The position numbers and the translations under genes were made by a program. The notes beneath the pieces are model-generated. The model had not been told where the DNA came from and searched no databases. It saw only the letters and a program-made list of their open reading frames with translations. This document shows positions 26,376 through 34,994 of a DNA stretch of 64,000 nucleotides, one piece after another. The stretch lies in contig MTOH01000009.1 of the NCBI GenBank assembly GCA_002011615.1, forward strand, positions 1 through 64,000, in the 5' to 3' direction. The stretch's first letter is position 1. Each line of letters starts with the position of its first letter. This DNA is from Candidatus Hydrothermus pacificus (GTDB taxonomy: Bacteria > Hydrothermota > Hydrothermia > Hydrothermales > Hydrothermaceae).

Positions 26376-27702
26376 TTTAGTATTAGTTTTTTTCAATCTC
26401 TATTATATCGGTGACGGTGATTTTAGAGGTGTATCGGGAAAATTTCTTAAAAAAATAGATTCAATAACAAGAGGTTATAAAGGAAAAATTTTTGATTCCA
26501 CAAATGCCAGAAATTTAACAGTTGAAATTCTTAAATTTTTCGAAGATAAAGGTTATCCCTTTACAGAAATAAGGTTTATCAGTTTTTTTAAAAAAGATGA
26601 TACCCTTGATTATGTTATGGAAATTCATAAAGGAAAACTCGGATTCATTGAAGGAGTTGATTTTGACGGGGTTAAAAGAGTTAATAAAAAAGAGATAAAA
26701 AAGATGTTGAGATTCAGACCACAAATCTTTTCCCACAGATTGCTTTCAAGTATAAAAAATAAATTTTATTTTTTTCCTTATCTTACCTATGAAGGTTACT
26801 ATTTTTTTGAAAATGAAAAAAAACTCTTTCTTGATATTGTTTTGAGAGAAAACCTGAGTAACAGCATAGAAGGTGGCATTGGATACTCCAATGAGAGTAA
26901 AGATGTGTTTGGAAATGTGAAAATTCATATTGATGCTCTTCTGGGAAGCCTTAGAAGCACAGAGCTTATGTGGAGAAGAATTAAAAAAGGCGAGCAGGAC
27001 TTTTTAATCAGTTATGAAGAACCTTTGTTTTATTTTCTGAATATGAAATTAAAAGGGAGCTATTTGCTTATCCAGAGGGACACATTTTATACAAAAGAGA
27101 ATTTTGATGCCACGCTTTATTTTCTTGTCTATCCTTTTAAACTGGGTGTGGGTGGAAGTTATGAAGAGAACAGAGATTTTATATCAGCCAGAAAAGAATA
27201 CAGGCTTTTAAACATCGCAGAAGTGGAAGGTGGAAGAAGAGAATATTTTAAATCAGGTTTTTACATCTTTTTAAATTCAAAATACTCAGGCAGCGACTAT
27301 TTTCGAATTTACGGAGTTTCAGAAGCAAGAAAGATATTTAATTTTTATGGTATACTTGGAAGGTTTTTTTATATGAATGTTACTAAAAGAGATGAACTGC
27401 TTAATTCAGAATATTTCTATGCAGGTGGTAAAGATAATTTAAGGGGTTATAATGAAGAAGAGTTTAAGGTTAAGGAGGCTTTTATTTTCAATTTTGAAAA
27501 CTATCTAATCCTGTCACGAATCTTTTCTCCTGTTCTGTTTTTTGATTCAGGAGTTCTGAAAAAGGACTATATAAAGTTCAGTTACGGTTTCGGGATTCTT
27601 GGAGAAAGAAAAAATCTTTCATATAAAATATTGATAGCCTTCCCCCATAAAGAAGGTATTTATAATACAAAAATTCACTTTTCTATCATTCAATATTTTT
27701 AG
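26368..27702 (+). CDS. BamA/TamA-like outer-membrane protein (Omp85 superfamily)
   Basis: A 444-residue protein starting at TTG. A signal-like start is followed by POTRA-like segments (residues 30-150, for example KGKLGFIEGVDFDGVKRVNKKEI) and a barrel of about 290 residues. The GGKDNLRGYNEEEF motif near residue 352 is the conserved LRGY/VRGF loop-6 signature of Omp85 proteins. With only about two POTRA repeats it is shorter than BamA (about 800), closer to TamA or a surface-antigen variant. It should help insert or translocate outer-membrane proteins. Its stop overlaps the convergent capA gene by 17 bases. Confidence 0.8.
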   Translation: MISLVLVFFNLYYIGDGDFRGVSGKFLKKIDSITRGYKGKIFDSTNARNLTVEILKFFEDKGYPFTEIRFISFFKKDDTLDYVMEIHKGKLGFIEGVDFDGVKRVNKKEIKKMLRFRPQIFSHRLLSSIKNKFYFFPYLTYEGYYFFENEKKLFLDIVLRENLSNSIEGGIGYSNESKDVFGNVKIHIDALLGSLRSTELMWRRIKKGEQDFLISYEEPLFYFLNMKLKGSYLLIQRDTFYTKENFDATLYFLVYPFKLGVGGSYEENRDFISARKEYRLLNIAEVEGGRREYFKSGFYIFLNSKYSGSDYFRIYGVSEARKIFNFYGILGRFFYMNVTKRDELLNSEYFYAGGKDNLRGYNEEEFKVKEAFIFNFENYLILSRIFSPVLFFDSGVLKKDYIKFSYGFGILGERKNLSYKILIAFPHKEGIYNTKIHFSIIQYF

Positions 27703-28663
27703 CGCTTTTTTTAACTTTTACAATATTGCCTTCTATTTGAATTCCATTTAAATTGTCTTCCTGTATCAACTTTTTAATTATGTTAACTGCAGTCCCTGTT
27801 TTGTCGTATTTAGGAATCCCGGGAGGTTCCAGAAGAAAGGGTATGATTTCTCCTTCTTTAAAATTACCTTTTTTATCAACTCTTAGCTTTAAAATAAAGG
27901 ACACATTTCTTGGATATTTAAGATTGAATCCACCAAAACAGGCAAAATTCCCGAGCGAATAGGCAATTATCTTGCCTTTATATATTTCAAGCCCTCTTAT
28001 TACATGGGGTCCATGACCAAAGACAACATCTGCACCTGAGTCAATTGCCTTTTTTGCAAATCTTTTTACATTACCCCTTTTTTCACTGTACATATATTCA
28101 AATTTGTCTCTCACATGCATTACAGAATCACCTTCTGCACCTGCATGAAAAGAAACTATCAGGATATCACATTCTTTTGAAACTTTTTCTATTAAAGAGA
28201 TTGAACTTTTTTCATCAAGTAAGTTGTTAGTATAATCGTAAACCGAGAAAGCAACAAATCCCATTTTTAAATTTTTGATATTAAAGGTGTCGTATGTGCC
28301 CTTTAATCCAGATACTATAAACCCTTCTTTTTTCAAAAGGTTATAGGTGTAAAGAGCCGATTTTTTACCCGCATCAAATATATGGTTGTTTGCGATGGAT
28401 ATCCCCTTTATTGAACTTTTTTTCAAACCATGGATGGTATTTTCAGGAAATATAAAGACAAAATCTTTTTTTCTCTTTATCATATTTTTACTTTCAAAAG
28501 TTCCTTCAAGATTTGCAAAGGATAGATCGCAATCCTCAATGTATTGACAGGTATTGCTGAAAAGCACAAAACCTGAATCCGGGGGAATCATTTTTTGAAT
28601 GACATTGCCGAGCATTATATCGCCCATAAGTGCAATGGTTATAATCAGGGAATCAGATACCAT
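27686..28663 (-). CDS. capA: CapA-family (PgsA-like) metallophosphoesterase-fold protein
   Basis: A 325-residue protein of the poly-gamma-glutamate/capsule CapA family with a calcineurin-like fold. Motifs are LMGDIMLGN near residue 12, FANLEGTF near 50, SIANNHIFDAG near 93, VSFHAGAEG near 157 and FGHGPHVIRG near 206, then IAYSLGNFA. These give the metal ligands (Asp, Asn, His). Its role in CapA proteins ranges from polymer synthesis to surface hydrolysis. No pgsB/C genes are near. It lacks a clear signal peptide. It starts two bases after the dipeptidase stop. Confidence 0.85.
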   Translation of the reverse strand: MVSDSLIITIALMGDIMLGNVIQKMIPPDSGFVLFSNTCQYIEDCDLSFANLEGTFESKNMIKRKKDFVFIFPENTIHGLKKSSIKGISIANNHIFDAGKKSALYTYNLLKKEGFIVSGLKGTYDTFNIKNLKMGFVAFSVYDYTNNLLDEKSSISLIEKVSKECDILIVSFHAGAEGDSVMHVRDKFEYMYSEKRGNVKRFAKKAIDSGADVVFGHGPHVIRGLEIYKGKIIAYSLGNFACFGGFNLKYPRNVSFILKLRVDKKGNFKEGEIIPFLLEPPGIPKYDKTGTAVNIIKKLIQEDNLNGIQIEGNIVKVKKSAKNIE

Positions 28664-28665
28664 TG

Positions 28666-29568
28666 TTAAGGCAGATTTTTTTCAAAGAATTTGAAGGCAT
28701 TTAGATAGAGAAAGGAATCAGGGAAATTTTTGAGAGCATTTTCTATCTCTTCATAGTTGTAAAGTCCTTTTATTATGTGTCTGTCTGATAAACCGAAAAG
28801 GTCAGAACCGAGTGCAAGATTCCCTGGATATTTTTCAACAAGTTTTTTAACTCTTTTTATGGCTTCCTCTTTATTCGTAATTCTTTCAAGAAAGAGATTT
28901 CCGAGTCCCACTCCTGCAATGCTTTTTCTTTCCCTTATTTTTTCCATTTCTCTGTAAGAAAGGTTCCTTTTGTTTTTTGGATTTCTCAAAATACCTGTAT
29001 GTGAGACAATAAATGGGACCTTTAAATTATAAACATCATAAAAGGTCTTTCTGCTTACATGTGCCAGGTCCACTATGCATTTTTGCTCTGCAATTTTCAA
29101 AACAATTTCCTTACCGAAATCCGTGAGTCCGTAGTCATTTTTATCGTTAAAGGAAGATGCTATATGATTGGAGTTATTCCAGGTCAGGGTAAAAATCCTT
29201 ATTCCCAGATTTATAAAGGATTTTAAAATGTATTTATCCTTTATGCTTGCACATCCTTCAATTTCAAGTATAAATCCCTTTTTTTTTGAATTTAAAACCC
29301 TCTTTAAATCTTTCTTTTTTTCTATTATTATAATTCCATTTTTCTCTGCAAATTCCCTGTAGGTTTCTATGGTTCTTAAAACCCTTGATATATCTGATGT
29401 TTCCACAAAACCATCTTTCCAGGGAGAGGGTGTAAAAATTGATACCACATTAAACTTAAAAAAATCTTCAGGATTTAAATCTTTAAAAATTAAAGGGTGT
29501 AATAAGTCCTGATGAAGGTCAAAAAGAATAGCTGATTTTTGTTTTAAAGCCTTCAAAGGGCGGTTCAT
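28666..29568 (-). CDS. Membrane dipeptidase (peptidase M19 family)
   Basis: A 300-residue TIM-barrel zinc dipeptidase. Motif FDLHQDLL near residue 17 gives the first His-x-Asp metal pair. Further motifs are LGIRIFTLTWNNSNHIA near 132, VDLAHVSRKTF near 172, FIVSHTG near 191 and LALGSDLFG near 257. It is shorter than typical renal dipeptidases (about 370) but holds the metal-site motifs. The start overlaps the upstream barrel gene by 50 bases; GGAGGA ten bases ahead of the ATG supports it. It may cleave dipeptides or act in envelope turnover. Confidence 0.82.
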   Translation of the reverse strand: MNRPLKALKQKSAILFDLHQDLLHPLIFKDLNPEDFFKFNVVSIFTPSPWKDGFVETSDISRVLRTIETYREFAEKNGIIIIEKKKDLKRVLNSKKKGFILEIEGCASIKDKYILKSFINLGIRIFTLTWNNSNHIASSFNDKNDYGLTDFGKEIVLKIAEQKCIVDLAHVSRKTFYDVYNLKVPFIVSHTGILRNPKNKRNLSYREMEKIRERKSIAGVGLGNLFLERITNKEEAIKRVKKLVEKYPGNLALGSDLFGLSDRHIIKGLYNYEEIENALKNFPDSFLYLNAFKFFEKNLP

Positions 29569-30964
29569 ATCTGCATATTCCTCCAGAACATTTTATTTCA
29601 CCCCTCTGTTTTCCATACATCAAAGAGATTTCAAGATTATAGCCTATCTGGAACATTGTTTCAAAAGTGTAATAATCCTTTTTATCTTTGTCCTGTGAAT
29701 AGGTCGCACTTACAAATCCAAAAGGATGAAGAATTTCAAATTCATAAAGGGGTTCTGTGTACTTATAGAGGGTGTCATTTATTATATCTTCTCTTTTCCT
29801 GAGTTCTGTGCCAAAGGACAGGGCGATTAAAGGAAATGAATATTGAATTTTGCCTTTGAAATCCATTTCCCCTCTTTTCTGAACAGATTCTGGTGGGTAA
29901 CCTTCCTCTATTTCAGCACCTTTGAAATATGCGTTATCAAAAGTAAAATCAAACAAGAAAGGATATCTATCTGCTCTTAGATTTACCTTTTGCTCTTCTG
30001 TTTTCTTATCTTTTCTGTAAAAAGACTTTGAGAAGTTCATGTCAAAATCAAAGAAAAACAATGGAAACAAAATATTCACAGCATATCCTTCTTCATCCCT
30101 TCCTTGAGTTAAAGAAATACCATAAGGATGAATGCATGGTGGAAGCGCATAGGGTGTTGAATATTTTTTATACTTTTCGTATTCAGTTGAAATTGTGAAC
30201 TGTCTTATTGAAAATACAACCTGGGTGTAATTTGCAAATCCTTTGGCATAATCATAGGGTAGAGTATCTGTCCATATAAGTTTGTCAATACCCCTTCTTC
30301 TTGAATATTCCTGATAAATCGTTATTATTCCACCTTTTAAATCAGCAGTAAATCCGGAAAATTCTGCTCTTTTTTTCTCCATAAATATATTCTGGTCATA
30401 GAAAACATGGTATCCACCGATGTTTATTCCTGGAAGTAAACTCATTTTTACTTCAGTAATCTTAAGTTCATCAAGAGTATCCTTTGAAAGAGCAGGATTA
30501 GGAGAATAATAAAGATATTCATAGGGTCTTCCGTAGGTAAAACCGAAATCAAATATTCCGAGTTTTAAATTTCCTGAAAATCCCTTTAAGAATCTCTCAA
30601 GTAAAACGGTTTCATCCTTTGTGAATCCAGCAAATAAGTTTCTTCCAAAATCCCTGTATATATCAAAGAATTCCAGTTTTAAAGGCTCTTTATCAATTTT
30701 TATATTTTTTCTGAAAATTTTCTCCATATTTATCCCGTAAATCTGCTGGACTTCAAAGGGTGAGTTTATATACCTTATCTCAAAGTCACCCTGAACAAAA
30801 TAGATATAAGGAAAAAGATTTATGTTTGTAAGATATCTTTCTCCCCAGATCTTTTCAGGTCCCTGAACCGTTAATTTTTCATACTTCAATTTCCAGAAGT
30901 CAAAATTCAGATTGCCTGAGATGCCTGCCTGTTGAATCAACAGAAAACATATAACTACATTCAT
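29519..30964 (-). CDS. Outer-membrane barrel-like protein resembling DUF6029
   Basis: A 481-residue exported beta-rich protein with a short signal (MNVVICFLLIQQAG). The start of the mature chain (ISGNLNFDFWKL), the central FGRNLFAGF segment and the conserved C-terminus (CSGGICRYEPPFEGFKTKISYSF, starting near residue 459) fit what I know of the DUF6029 family of Bacteroidota. In those genomes it likewise lies beside Omp28-like and TlpA-like thioredoxin proteins. Function is unknown; a barrel or large beta-sheet in the outer membrane is likely. It is co-directional with the Omp28/TlpA genes upstream. Confidence 0.68.
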   Translation of the reverse strand: MNVVICFLLIQQAGISGNLNFDFWKLKYEKLTVQGPEKIWGERYLTNINLFPYIYFVQGDFEIRYINSPFEVQQIYGINMEKIFRKNIKIDKEPLKLEFFDIYRDFGRNLFAGFTKDETVLLERFLKGFSGNLKLGIFDFGFTYGRPYEYLYYSPNPALSKDTLDELKITEVKMSLLPGINIGGYHVFYDQNIFMEKKRAEFSGFTADLKGGIITIYQEYSRRRGIDKLIWTDTLPYDYAKGFANYTQVVFSIRQFTISTEYEKYKKYSTPYALPPCIHPYGISLTQGRDEEGYAVNILFPLFFFDFDMNFSKSFYRKDKKTEEQKVNLRADRYPFLFDFTFDNAYFKGAEIEEGYPPESVQKRGEMDFKGKIQYSFPLIALSFGTELRKREDIINDTLYKYTEPLYEFEILHPFGFVSATYSQDKDKKDYYTFETMFQIGYNLEISLMYGKQRGEIKCSGGICRYEPPFEGFKTKISYSF

Positions 30965-31014
30965 ACCTCCTCCTTTTAATTCATCATGGTAATTTATGAA
31001 TTTTTATTTTCTGT

Positions 31015-31467
31015 TCACTCTTTTCCAAAAATTTCCTCAAAAACCTTTTCTATCTCCTCCTTTTCCTTTGGATTGTACCCCACCTTTTTATATACAATCC
31101 CCTTTTCTTTTGTAATTATAAAAGTGGTGGGTAAAAATAGAACTCCATAACTCCTGCCTATTTTTTTCCCGTCATCAATGGCGATTATGAAATCCCATCC
31201 CCTTGATTTTACAAGAGGTTCAATCTTTGAAGCTGTTTTCTGAGTGTCCCATGAAAGGGCAACAATTGTTATTTTATCTTTATATTCCTCCTGTATTTCC
31301 TTGAGTATATCGAGAACCTCATCACAATAGGCGCACCAGGTTGCCCAGAAATCAAGAATAACAGGACCTTTTTCAAGGAGGGAATCCAGCTCAAACTCGG
31401 TGCCTTTTAAATCCTTAATTTTAAAATTTGTATAACTCAGAATAAAGAAAGATAGAATTAAATTCAT
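31015..31467 (-). CDS. TlpA/ResA-like exported thioredoxin
   Basis: A 150-residue thioredoxin-fold protein with a short N-terminal signal. The redox centre is WATWCAYCDEV (Cys42 and Cys45), with the cis-Pro in LFLPTTFI near residue 117. The GTEFELDSLLEKGPVILDFWA start is typical of the TlpA/AhpC-TSA group used in cytochrome c maturation or disulfide exchange in the periplasm. It overlaps the end of the Omp28-like gene by ATGA, so it is made with it and may reduce or charge that protein's own CxxC. Confidence 0.9.
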   Translation of the reverse strand: MNLILSFFILSYTNFKIKDLKGTEFELDSLLEKGPVILDFWATWCAYCDEVLDILKEIQEEYKDKITIVALSWDTQKTASKIEPLVKSRGWDFIIAIDDGKKIGRSYGVLFLPTTFIITKEKGIVYKKVGYNPKEKEEIEKVFEEIFGKE

Positions 31468-32441
31468 CTTGATACAACCAGTTTACCCTTTATGTCATTG
31501 ACCCTGTAGAAGTAAACACCCTTTTCCAGTTTCAGATTTACCTCTCCATCAGAAACTTTTCTTGAAAGAATTTTTCTTCCTGATGAGTCAAAGAGTTTAA
31601 GGTCTGCGTTACCTGTGTTTTTGAGGATGAATTTTACAGATTTCCCCTGGTTTTTAACCATTACAGAAGGTGTTTTATCTTCCTTTTTCACATTTTCCTC
31701 GACATATACCCATGTCAATGAGTCAAGTTCAAATTCGGGTCTTGCACCTATCACTTCTTTTGTATTGTCGTTCTGGAAAAATACAACAAAAGCTATTTCG
31801 TGCTCATTGTCAGAGGAGAGAACAGTGAAGTTTTCAGAGTGGTTTGTAGAATTCCCTGGATTTATTGAATAATAGGTACCCGTAGCAGTAGGAAGCATAT
31901 CCCTCAGAACCCATTCAAGATGTGTCTGGTTCTGCCATGTATATGGCGTATCAAGTATGACCTGTGCAATCCTTAAATAACCTGAAATTGTGGAATTTCC
32001 AACGTTTGTAAGGGTTATATTCAAAGTTCCCTGCTTTGTATCGGGATTATACTCACCTGAACATGTGAATGTAACAGGCTGGTCAATATTTTTTCTCTGG
32101 TCAAATCGCTGTTTGTAATAGGGATACAGGCTTTGATTGTGGTTACCTCCGGGAACATCCAGAACACCATCTATGAACACATGGGGGTATCCTCCAAAGT
32201 TATAGTAGCTTCCTCTTGTTGCAGCTTCTGCTCTATAAAATGGGTCTGATGTTGAAGAGTGATAGGCTATTACTGTGACGGAATCGCCGTGATATGTTTT
32301 CATATCATGAAGTCCCATAGCAGCACCCGGGCAGTAGTAGCACCATGTTGCTGTGAATTCTTCAAACAGCACAGTCCTCTGCACCGCATTTAGTGTGCTC
32401 ACCATCCCCACCACCATACACAGTGCTATTATTTTTTTCAT
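31464..32441 (-). CDS. Omp28-like secreted thioredoxin-fold protein, copy A
   Basis: A 325-residue exported protein. Signal MKKIIALCMVVGMVSTLNA; then a thioredoxin-like domain with EEFTATWCYYCPG (CxxC at about residues 33-36) and GYPHVFIDG. A beta-sandwich follows (residues 125-240), and then a type IX-like sorting tail (ADLKLFDSSGRKILSRKV, then EKGVYFYRV). This matches Omp28-related proteins of Bacteroidota. It is a near-duplicate of the next upstream gene. Variation concentrates around the active site and substrate loop (HVFIDG against TVWFDG), so the copies may have different targets. GGAGGTGAT lies four to five bases before the ATG. Confidence 0.88.
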   Translation of the reverse strand: MKKIIALCMVVGMVSTLNAVQRTVLFEEFTATWCYYCPGAAMGLHDMKTYHGDSVTVIAYHSSTSDPFYRAEAATRGSYYNFGGYPHVFIDGVLDVPGGNHNQSLYPYYKQRFDQRKNIDQPVTFTCSGEYNPDTKQGTLNITLTNVGNSTISGYLRIAQVILDTPYTWQNQTHLEWVLRDMLPTATGTYYSINPGNSTNHSENFTVLSSDNEHEIAFVVFFQNDNTKEVIGARPEFELDSLTWVYVEENVKKEDKTPSVMVKNQGKSVKFILKNTGNADLKLFDSSGRKILSRKVSDGEVNLKLEKGVYFYRVNDIKGKLVVSR

Positions 32442-32499
32442 TATATCACCTCCATAATTTTTTAAATTTTAAAGTCATAAATTTAAAAATTTCAAGTAT
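32442..32499 (-). repeat. Duplicated leader carrying the last codons of the rhomboid gene
   Basis: This intergenic stretch is nearly identical to 33503-33559, the leader of copy B. In the original the distal part is the end of the rhomboid reading frame (K-R-Y-L-K-F-L-N-L-stop). Here the same bases still spell Y-L-K-F-L-N-L-stop but belong to no gene. The duplication unit therefore began inside the rhomboid 3' end and included promoter, ribosome site and gene. Confidence 0.8.
32466..32495 (-). promoter_or_regulatory. Promoter of Omp28-like copy A
   Basis: On the minus strand TTGAAA (32495-32490), an 18-base spacer and TAAAAT (32471-32466) precede GGAGGTGAT and the ATG at 32441. Confidence 0.5.
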
Positions 32500-32530
32500 T
32501 TTTCAGGTTTTTAACCCTATTTTTCAAACA

Positions 32531-33502
32531 TTATCCTGACACAACCAGCTTGCCTTTTATATCTTTAATCCTGTAGAAGTAGACCCCCTTTTCCAGTTTC
32601 AGGTTTACCTCTCCATCAGAAACTTTTCTTGAAAGAATTTTTCTTCCTGATGAGTCAAAGAGTTTAAGGTCTGCATTACCTGTGTTTTTGAGAATGAATT
32701 TTACAGATTTCCCCTGGTTTTTAACCATTACAGAAGGTGTTTTGTCTTCCTTTTTCACATTTTCCTCAACATATATCCATGTAAGTGAGTCAAGTTCAAA
32801 TTCGGGTCTTGCACCGTAGACCTCTTTTGTATTGTCGTTCTGGAAAAATACAACAAAAGCTATCTCATGCTCATTGTCATAGGCAAAGAGGGTGAAGTTC
32901 TCAGAGTGAATAACAGAATCTCCCGGATTTAATGTATACTGGGTGCCTGTGGCTGTCGGAAGCATATCCCTCATAACCCATTCAAGATTGGTCTGGTTCT
33001 GCCATGTATAGGGTGTATCAAGGATTACCATTGCAATTCTCAAATAAGCTGAGAGTGTCGAATTTCCAACATTTTTAAGAACTATATTTAAAGTTCCCTG
33101 TCTTGTTGCGGGATAATACTCACCTGAACATGTGAATGTAACAGGCTGGTCAATATTTTTTCTCTGGTCAAATCGCTGTTTGTAATAGGGATACATACTC
33201 TGACTGGATGAACCACCCACATAGTTTAAAACCCCATCAAACCATACGGTCGGAAATCCGGTTACATTGTAGTAATTAGTTCTTTGAACTGATTCTGTAG
33301 TGGCAAAGGGATCTGAGTAGTGATATGCTATTATAGTTACAGAATCACCGTGATATGTCTTTAAGTCATGAAGACCCATGGCAGCGCCCGGACAATAAGG
33401 GCACCATGTCCCTGTGAATTCTTCGCATAGCACAGTCCTCTGCACTGCACCCAGTGTGCTCACCATGCCCACCACCATACACAGTGCTATTATTTTTTTC
33501 AT
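32531..33502 (-). CDS. Omp28-like secreted thioredoxin-fold protein, copy B
   Basis: A 323-residue paralogue of copy A with the same signal peptide, CxxC domain (EEFTGTWCPYCPG), sandwich domain and sorting tail. The first 25 residues and last 100 residues are almost identical between copies at DNA level, while the region around residues 65-100 differs, as expected from recent tandem duplication with local diversification or gene conversion. Its leader overlaps the rhomboid 3' end, marking it as the ancestral position. Both copies are preceded by the same promoter and ribosome site. Confidence 0.88.
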   Translation of the reverse strand: MKKIIALCMVVGMVSTLGAVQRTVLCEEFTGTWCPYCPGAAMGLHDLKTYHGDSVTIIAYHYSDPFATTESVQRTNYYNVTGFPTVWFDGVLNYVGGSSSQSMYPYYKQRFDQRKNIDQPVTFTCSGEYYPATRQGTLNIVLKNVGNSTLSAYLRIAMVILDTPYTWQNQTNLEWVMRDMLPTATGTQYTLNPGDSVIHSENFTLFAYDNEHEIAFVVFFQNDNTKEVYGARPEFELDSLTWIYVEENVKKEDKTPSVMVKNQGKSVKFILKNTGNADLKLFDSSGRKILSRKVSDGEVNLKLEKGVYFYRIKDIKGKLVVSG

Positions 33503-33525: not shown

Positions 33526-33555
33526 ATTTTAAAGTTATAAATTTAAAAATTTCAA
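33526..33555 (-). promoter_or_regulatory. Promoter of Omp28-like copy B, inside the rhomboid gene end
   Basis: TTGAAA (33555-33550), an 18-base spacer and TAAAAT (33531-33526) on the minus strand. The -35 box lies within the rhomboid coding sequence (codons for L-K-F). Confidence 0.5.
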
Positions 33556-34215
33556 GTATCTTTTAATTTTTCTCTTTCTCAATAAAATCCCTATGAAAAC
33601 CCCGTATAAAAATCCTCCGATATGGGCAAAAAAGGCTATTCCACCTTGGGATTTAACTCCCAGGGAGAAAATTCCTGATGCAAATTGCAGGAAAAACCAG
33701 AAGGCCAAGAATAAAAAGGCAGGAACAGGCACTATTTCCCAGAAGAACCAGAAGGGAATTAAAGTTAAAACCCTTGCAAGAGGGAAAAATACAAAATATA
33801 TGCCAAGAACACCTGCTATTGCACCTGATGCACCTATCATCGGGATTTTTGAGGAGAAGGAGAAGATTCCCTGAACCAGGGAAGCAACAATCCCTGCTGA
33901 TATGTAAAACAGTGGATAGAAAAAATGCCCGAGGATATCCTCAACATTGTCACCAAATATGTAAAGATAGAGCATATTACCCAGAAAATGGAGCCATCCA
34001 CCGTGTAAAAAAATGCTTGTTATAAGGGATGGGAAGTTGCCCAGAGGGTCTTTGAAAAAGAAATAAGGAATAAAACCTGCTTTATAAAAAAGCGCATGGA
34101 GGGATTTATCAGGTAGAAATACCTCATATAAAAATATAACAGTATTTGCAAATAAAAAGAAATAGTTAAAAAAGGTAAATCTGTAAGTTGGAACATTATC
34201 CTTTAACGGAATCAT
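33535..34215 (-). CDS. Rhomboid-family intramembrane serine protease
   Basis: A 226-residue protein with six or seven membrane segments. Catalytic motif GASGAIAGVLG near residue 128 supplies the serine, the oxyanion/HxxxN region is HGGWLHFLGNMLYLYIFGD near 71, and the partner His is in FFAHIGGFLYGV near 195. The dyad and the GxxxG-type final helix are intact. It cleaves membrane proteins in the lipid bilayer. The C-terminus (KRYLKFLNL) is the part copied downstream between the two Omp28-like genes. Confidence 0.92.
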   Translation of the reverse strand: MIPLKDNVPTYRFTFFNYFFLFANTVIFLYEVFLPDKSLHALFYKAGFIPYFFFKDPLGNFPSLITSIFLHGGWLHFLGNMLYLYIFGDNVEDILGHFFYPLFYISAGIVASLVQGIFSFSSKIPMIGASGAIAGVLGIYFVFFPLARVLTLIPFWFFWEIVPVPAFLFLAFWFFLQFASGIFSLGVKSQGGIAFFAHIGGFLYGVFIGILLRKRKIKRYLKFLNL

Positions 34216-34238
34216 TGTTTATAATGATAAAGTTATGG

Positions 34239-34267
34239 TTGAAAAATTTTCAAAAAAACTTTATTAT
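34239..34267 (+). promoter_or_regulatory. Promoter of the rsmI operon
   Basis: TTGAAA (34239-34244), a 17-base spacer and TATTAT (34262-34267) predict a start near 34274, 30 bases before the rsmI ATG. This would serve the long plus-strand gene run that follows. Confidence 0.55.
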
Positions 34268-34304
34268 TATAATTTTGGAAATGGGAACATAAGGAAATGA
34301 AGTA

Positions 34305-34994
34305 ATGGAAAAAGATGGGTTTCTGTCCGCAGGGGTTTTATATGTAATTGCTACTCCAATAGGAAATTTGAATGATATAACTTTCAGAGCAATTAAGATT
34401 TTAAAAGAAGTTGATGCAGTTATATGTGAAGACACAAGAAGAACATTGAAGCTTTTAAACTATTATAATATTAAAAAGAAGATGATTTCTTATTTTAAAG
34501 GTAAAGAAATAAAGAGAGTACCTCTTATAGAAAAGATTTTAAATAAAGGCGGTTCCCTTGCTCTTGTTTCTGACAGCGGGACTCCGTGTATTCAGGACCC
34601 GGGATATATTTTAATAAAAAATCTGAGAGAAAAGGGATATAAGGTGGTTCCGATTCCCGGACCTTCAGCTCTTACATCTGCAATTTCAGTTTCTGGTATA
34701 AAATCAGAGGAATTCTTTTTTATGGGATTTTTACCCAAAAGAACCTCCAGAAGAAAAAAGATTTTGAAAAAAGCAAAAGAAACTGGAAAAACCTGTGTTT
34801 TTTTTATCTCACCCCATGAGAAAGAAAAAGTGTTCCCTGAGTTGATAGAGGTATTTGGTAACAGGAAAACCTATGCAGGGAGAGAACTCACCAAGATGCA
34901 TGAAGAACATTTTTATGGTGATTTAAAGGGCGCTTTTGAATGGATAAAGGATAAAAAAGGAGAGTTTGTTCTGATAATAGAAGGCGATGAATAA
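34305..34994 (+). CDS. rsmI: 16S rRNA (cytidine1402-2'-O)-methyltransferase
   Basis: A 229-residue SAM-dependent tetrapyrrole-methylase-fold enzyme. LYVIATPIGNLNDITFRA near residue 11 and CEDTRRTLKLLNYY near 42 are diagnostic, with SDSGTPCIQDPG near 88 and the GPSALTSAISVSG SAM site near 117. It methylates C1402 in the ribosomal decoding centre with RsmH. The last codons overlap the next gene by eight bases. Confidence 0.95.
   Translation: MEKDGFLSAGVLYVIATPIGNLNDITFRAIKILKEVDAVICEDTRRTLKLLNYYNIKKKMISYFKGKEIKRVPLIEKILNKGGSLALVSDSGTPCIQDPGYILIKNLREKGYKVVPIPGPSALTSAISVSGIKSEEFFFMGFLPKRTSRRKKILKKAKETGKTCVFFISPHEKEKVFPELIEVFGNRKTYAGRELTKMHEEHFYGDLKGAFEWIKDKKGEFVLIIEGDE

Follow-up and report, generated by a model that had tools for sequence, protein, structure and literature searches.

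A TlpA-type thioredoxin gene linked to a DUF6029 outer-membrane barrel gene in four phyla points to a thiol-redox module in the bacterial envelope

Introduction

Four consecutive genes of Candidatus Hydrothermus pacificus raise the question of whether they form a functional unit and, if so, of what kind. The genes lie on the minus strand of the first 64,000 nucleotides of contig MTOH01000009.1 (assembly GCA_002011615.1; this whole stretch is hereafter the window) and, in the order of transcription, encode two Omp28-like proteins (A and B), a TlpA/ResA-type thioredoxin (hereafter, TlpA), and a large outer-membrane beta-barrel related to the DUF6029 family. An earlier note on this DNA, made from the sequence alone, had described such a run of genes, which is indeed present, all on one strand, in the list of open reading frames (ORFs), and had suggested that a linkage conserved across phyla would imply an uncharacterized envelope redox or secretion module. 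The comparison of barrel-bearing loci described below indicates that the core of the arrangement is the TlpA-type thioredoxin and the large DUF6029 barrel with a near-universal C-x4-C motif, the Omp28-like protein being a common third part. This linkage and the cysteine pair point to a previously unrecognized thiol-redox module in the bacterial envelope.

Conserved linkage of TlpA and barrel genes

Altogether, we compared 138 neighbourhoods with a recognizable barrel gene, 61 from the window's own phylum (the window included), 42 from Bacteroidota, 21 from Neomarinimicrobiota, and 14 from Coatesbacteria. In 131 of these loci (58/61, 38/42, 21/21, and 14/14, respectively), the barrel gene has a same-strand TlpA gene no more than 4.5 kb away; a TlpA gene located directly upstream is found in 119 of the 137 loci with room for it (48/60, 36/42, 21/21, and 14/14). 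Beyond 4.5 kb, no TlpA matches of equal strength were detected in 387 kb of flanking sequence. An Omp28-like gene is found near the barrel gene in 83 of the 138 loci (48/61 in the window's phylum, 24/42 in Bacteroidota, 11/21 in Neomarinimicrobiota, and 0/14 in Coatesbacteria), preceding the barrel gene in the window's phylum and mostly following it in Bacteroidota and Neomarinimicrobiota. TlpA and the barrel form the invariant core, which Omp28 joins often but not always. Recurrence among relatives and across the three other phyla makes the arrangement of the window more than chance, and the pattern is one of co-inheritance.

A conserved neighbourhood outside this genome was thus found by the gene-neighbourhood analysis that the earlier note had proposed. 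Together with the DUF6029 profile match described below, this supports the earlier interpretation, neither of the two outcomes named there as refuting it having been observed. As to details, that the three gene types are neighbours in Bacteroidota holds for TlpA, with an Omp28-like gene close by in 24 of the 42 loci, and the linkage across phyla extends to all four for the TlpA–barrel pair, the Omp28 part being frequent but absent from the Coatesbacteria loci. In the open-licence literature searched on DUF6029, Omp28, TlpA, selenoproteins, the type IX secretion system (T9SS), and HBP35, we found no account of this linkage and a single paper naming DUF6029, merely for its resemblance to Wzi.

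The other phyla were reached by way of a DNA pattern of the C-terminal barrel motif, which retrieved 27 contigs from the genome collection. The genomes behind 12 of these, from Bacteroidota, Neomarinimicrobiota, and Coatesbacteria, were searched, and all 12 contain a match to the DUF6029 profile PF19494 above the cut-off. Searched phylum by phylum, PF19494 was detected in 101 of the 147 genomes of the window's phylum (100 with a profile of the own-phylum barrels), 80 of 296 Bacteroidota, 37 of 80 Neomarinimicrobiota, and 14 of 14 Coatesbacteria genomes; there were no DUF6029 matches in 72,556 plasmid records.

In one type of Bacteroidota locus (L163-L172), which we take to be Flavobacteria-like, the TlpA and barrel genes are followed mostly by one or two extra redoxin genes instead of a recognizable Omp28 gene, and the motif reads ACTSGICYE.

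The barrel and its cysteine pair

The DUF6029 match suggested earlier for the barrel ORF was upheld by the profile search: the window barrel matches PF19494 (Pfam) with an E value of 1.8e-13 and 50.5 bits against a gathering cut-off of 27, the match covering only residues 418-481, that is, the last 64 residues (positions 472-538 of the 538 in the profile). Its own-phylum relatives match PF19494 in two stretches, at 86 to 112 bits, and the own-phylum barrel profile spans the full length of the window barrel at 410 bits, the window being one of the 17 rows of that profile. Comparison of profile A5 with PDB sequences yielded chance matches only (RecA, SURF1-like), which were rejected.

Close to its end, the barrel carries a C-x4-C motif within the pattern ...GGxxC-x-x-G-[VI]-C-R..., and this motif is present in 135 of the 136 uncut barrel frames from four phyla; the sole frame lacking it, L147, is short (376 residues). 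The two cysteines, C459 and C464 in the window numbering, are invariant in alignment A4, and 79 of the 135 barrels with the motif contain no further cysteine beyond frame residue 40.

Because the AlphaFold model of the window barrel itself is too poor (predicted local distance difference test (pLDDT) 48.6), the structural argument relies on a Prevotella DUF6029 relative (L114), whose model (pLDDT 69.5, predicted template modelling score 0.65) consists of 24 strands. The connections between these alternate between long (5-43 residues) and short (2-12 residues), and the C-x4-C motif is found in the long connection ahead of the last strand, in the last hairpin. In outer-membrane proteins, the side of the long loops is, as a rule, the outer side, and we infer that the pair lies on the surface side of the outer membrane. 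Compared by Foldseek and VIA-align with PDB only, the L114 model best matches the porin OccK8 (Z 18.4, root-mean-square deviation 5.7 over 302) and resembles the usher pore FimD (3ohn; Z 17.4, 4.4 over 378 residues). These matches indicate a generic barrel and say nothing on function.

Taken by itself, such a barrel would fit the simplest alternative to a redox module, namely, that TlpA, perhaps together with Omp28, assists folding and inserts or corrects one structural disulfide, by analogy with DsbA and DsbC that serve the disulfides of LptD, in a barrel with a non-redox function, such as solute or polysaccharide transport. In most of the barrels, C-x4-C is the only cysteine pair, the model resembles an ordinary large barrel, nearest to porins and 24-strand ushers, and an HHpred likeness between Wzi-type polysaccharide barrels and DUF6029 is reported in a 2022 study (PMC9603273). 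However, this explanation does not account for the frequent Omp28-like neighbour with a CxxC or U-x-x-C site (U, selenocysteine), often equipped with an export tail or a lipobox; furthermore, structural disulfides are usually the task of general oxidases and not of gene pairs conserved across phyla. We consider it rather unlikely that biogenesis is all that the linkage reflects.

A barrel-linked TlpA subfamily

The window TlpA scores 64 bits, well above the Pfam cut-offs of 26 and 26.6 for AhpC-TSA and Redoxin. A CxxC motif is present in all 132 TlpA proteins encoded near barrels; by simple rules, these proteins have a hydrophobic N-terminus and seldom a lipobox (3/132). Hidden Markov models (HMMs) trained without one phylum were scored, in that phylum, on the linked TlpAs and on their own unlinked paralogues. 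The lowest-scoring linked TlpA exceeds the best unlinked one in Bacteroidota (114 versus 83 bits), Neomarinimicrobiota (112 versus 94), and Coatesbacteria (105 versus 75). The phylogenetic tree contains one group (support 93/88) with 40 of the 44 linked TlpAs, representing all four phyla, and with none of the 19 paralogues. The gene adjoining the barrel gene is the top-scoring TlpA of its genome (106 to 175 bits) in all 20 barrel-bearing genomes; in 18 of 20 barrel-less genomes, the top score does not exceed 101 bits. By these comparisons, the linked TlpAs are a cross-phylum subfamily largely apart from the paralogues; a single origin of this subfamily is possible, albeit not proven.

Omp28-like proteins, sorting tails, and selenocysteine

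The two window copies score below the curated cut-offs of both PF11551 (23.5 and 26 bits; cut-off 34.9) and NF033782 (47 and 49.6 bits, aligned over 18-231 and 19-230; cut-off 150), which is why we denote them Omp28-like rather than members of the family. With 26.3 and 28.3 bits, both exceed the cut-off of 23 for the T9SS type A sorting domain TIGR04183 (NCBIfam), and both contain CxxC, in agreement with the earlier description of two sorted proteins with thioredoxin domains of their own. Of the Omp28-like genes compared with Pfam, the three from Bacteroidota (L114, L155, and L160), located downstream of the barrel gene, exceed the PF11551 cut-off, and the single gene from Neomarinimicrobiota (L120) is absent from the Pfam listing for PF11551. 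By simple rules, the linked Omp28-like proteins are a mix of those with a lipobox, those with a T9SS-like tail, and those with neither.

The active sites of the 104 Omp28-like matches near barrels are CxxC in 78 cases, U-x-x-C, with an in-frame TGA, in 23, and neither in 3, of which two are truncated or masked there; in the Omp28-like protein of L062, CxxC was not found at the active site. The U-x-x-C sites are distributed unevenly among the phyla, with 21 of 67 in the window's phylum, 2 of 11 in Neomarinimicrobiota, and 0 of 26 in Bacteroidota. These are short proteins with the TGA at the first active-site position; the own-phylum loci concerned are L055, L064, L066, L067, L069, L070, L072-L077, L079, and L082-L088, and those from Neomarinimicrobiota are L175 and L181. 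A tRNA-Sec gene is matched strongly, at 75 to 78 bits, in four own-phylum genomes with U-x-x-C Omp28 (G068, G071, G074, and G087); there is no match above the cut-off in the window's genome. Against NF045500, the Omp28-related selenoprotein model (cut-off 200), the tested L069 protein scores 23 bits and the window copies 52 and 59 bits. Because L069 is so far below this cut-off, the U-x-x-C Omp28-like proteins may be an unrecorded selenoprotein group.

The boldest explanation of the gene run builds on these sites: the periplasmic TlpA and a surface Omp28, often a selenoprotein, would exchange redox equivalents or a small thiol carrier by way of the barrel, enabling the cell to reduce extracellular disulfides or other external compounds. 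We know of no example of such a thiol relay across the outer membrane. The gene run does hold three thiol sites, with predicted locations on the inner side of the outer membrane, within it, and on its outer side, and selenocysteine in Omp28 suggests reductive catalysis, but Coatesbacteria retain TlpA and the barrel with no Omp28 detected, and many linked Omp28 proteins have, by the same simple rules, no lipobox and no sorting tail. Even with HBP35 as a precedent for a T9SS-sorted surface thioredoxin (PMC2907840), a relay of this kind seems improbable.

The SprA translocon model matches the window's genome (best E value 1.9e-41), and SprA is present in 145 of the 147 genomes of the phylum; accordingly, the presence of T9SS was rejected as a discriminator. 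The near-ubiquity of this translocon fits another explanation, in which the barrel pair is disulfide-bonded to another envelope protein and the bond is regulated by TlpA. In the gliding/T9SS machinery of Bacteroidota, SprF and PorG are outer-membrane barrels bonded to GldK through disulfides of their twin cysteines (PMC12635249). These cysteines form a C-x-C motif (C324/C326 in SprF and C225/C227 in PorG, the latter pair being modelled in an unstructured tail beneath the barrel), whereas in window-type barrels, C-x4-C is in the last long loop. Moreover, with the barrel in 100 and SprA in 145 of the 147 genomes, the presence of the barrel does not track T9SS, and covalent anchoring of this kind appears highly doubtful.

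A putative outer-membrane thiol-redox module

The interpretation that we lean to, with slightly more belief than doubt, is an old, co-inherited outer-membrane thiol-redox module in which TlpA is the dedicated thiol-disulfide partner of the barrel pair and Omp28 is the second partner. TlpA would be secreted to the periplasm and, as the dedicated oxidoreductase of the barrel, make, break, or reshuffle the C459-C464 disulfide. The barrel would expose this pair either at the external membrane face or within the lumen, and Omp28, in the outer membrane or at the cell surface, would either use the redox state of the pair or help maintain it. The co-inheritance, the cysteine pair, and the active sites are apparent in the sequences compared; TlpA, Omp28, and the pair are presumed from these to be redox-active, and the cysteines of TlpA would have to meet those of the barrel, in the loop where the model places them. 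Of the two roles contemplated in the earlier note, redox has much the stronger support, given C-x4-C in 135 of the 136 intact barrels and the U-x-x-C sites of Omp28; nothing tested supports secretion.

Several observations weigh against the module as proposed. The action of TlpA on the barrel cysteines is something that we infer, and it may be confined to biogenesis because a periplasmic TlpA would need a route to reach a surface-side loop of the folded barrel. The placement of that loop is weakened by a pLDDT below 50 in the motif region of the L114 model, as well as by the poor model of the window barrel. The gene association has exceptions, too: Omp28 is near the barrel in none of the Coatesbacteria loci and far from universal elsewhere; TlpA was not found nearby in 2 of the 42 Bacteroidota loci (L137 and L158) and 2 of the 61 own-phylum loci (L032 and L052; a third, L053, is cut by the contig end), and in Bacteroidota L148 and L149 it is adjacent yet divergent. 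The TlpA subfamily is blurred at its edges, given that the HMM ranges overlap in the window's own phylum (lowest linked, 94.7 bits; best unlinked, 105.6), that four Coatesbacteria linked TlpAs fall just outside the main group of the tree, and that two barrel-less genomes, G036 (125.5 bits) and G121 (110.9 bits), encode a TlpA with a linked-type score and no barrel near that gene. Finally, G075 contains a TGA-containing Omp28 yet no strong tRNA-Sec match.

DUF6029 occurs in Bacteroidota, gut genera included, and in three further phyla. The gene pair in four phyla, the near-universal cysteine pair, and a possible selenoprotein partner lead to a specific, testable role for this family. To our knowledge, the general disulfide machinery does not act at the outer membrane; surface-side redox activity of the pair, if real, would reveal a means by which these bacteria control thiols there.

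Organization and local history of the locus

Table 1. Genes and motif of the barrel locus in the window
Feature	Coordinates	Strand	Description
Omp28-like protein A	33502..32531	minus	323 amino acids; TIGR04183 28.3 bits, PF11551 26 bits; N-terminal signal-like stretch, CxxC thioredoxin-fold domain (TWCPYC), Omp28-like region, C-terminal T9SS-type sorting tail
Omp28-like protein B	32441..31464	minus	325 amino acids; CxxC (TWCYYC), sorting tail; tandem duplicate of A
TlpA/ResA-type thioredoxin	31467..31015	minus	150 amino acids; CxxC (TWCAYC); member of the barrel-linked TlpA subfamily
DUF6029 outer-membrane beta-barrel	30964..29519	minus	481 amino acids; PF19494, own-phylum profile, structure models
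C-x4-C motif CSGGIC	29573..29590	minus	barrel residues 459-464, loop preceding the last strand
M19 dipeptidase gene	29568..28666	minus	overlaps the end of the barrel gene by 50 bp
CapA-like gene	28663..27686	minus	same strand, after the M19 dipeptidase gene

The start of the TlpA gene overlaps the stop of the Omp28-like B gene by 4 bp (Table 1). The two Omp28-like proteins are 84% identical (270 of 323 aligned residues; 95% in the tail), and the ~60 nt upstream of the two genes are nearly identical to each other, which together indicate a tandem duplication. A third Omp28-like protein is encoded in the same genome away from the barrel (L092, G000:C5:21410-22051, a 645-residue open frame). The M19 dipeptidase, CapA, and rhomboid genes were rejected as parts of the module, each matching the window alone among the 61 own-phylum loci; the M19 dipeptidase and CapA genes are local company because neither was found near the barrel in the other 60.

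A search with the own-phylum barrel profile did not detect the barrel in the four same-order relatives of the window's genome (G027-G030). In two of these, G027 and G028, the genes beside an rsmI-like methylase gene match the window on one side only; its other side has different genes, among them an unlinked-type TlpA. Given the absence of the barrel from all four and this one-sided match, the module was either gained in the lineage of the window or lost in the relatives. Comparison of window positions 33535-34305 with the loci of two same-order relatives (L243 and L244) shows an rsmI-like junction common on one side and no Omp28-TlpA-barrel block.

Comparison with known systems

Each component of the putative module resembles a known family and departs from it in some respect. 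The window barrel is above the DUF6029 cut-off and has the same C-terminal motif and the same TlpA neighbour as in Bacteroidota, but aligns with the C-terminal end of the family profile only. The linked TlpAs have the fold, CxxC, and hydrophobic N-terminus in common with the TlpA/ResA/DsbE thiol-disulfide oxidoreductases and yet form a separate, barrel-linked subfamily; the window TlpA is above the curated cut-off of none of the NCBIfam models listed. The SprF and PorG barrels provide a precedent for a functional cysteine pair on an outer-membrane barrel; however, theirs is bonded to GldK, and the word thioredoxin is absent from the main text of PMC12635249. The Omp28 family lipoproteins (PF11551 and NF033782) have the same succession of a CxxC thioredoxin-like domain and an Omp28-like region as the window copies, which fall short of both cut-offs and carry a T9SS-type tail in place of a lipobox. 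The Omp28-related selenoproteins (NF045500), judging by the family name, have selenocysteine in the same fold region, whereas the window copies have CxxC and score below the cut-off. HBP35 of Porphyromonas gingivalis matches the window Omp28-like proteins weakly in sequence (5y1a, E value 0.082, 25 residues), but has the same combination of a thioredoxin domain with a C-terminal T9SS domain, together with a cell-surface form and demonstrated thioredoxin activity (PMC2907840).

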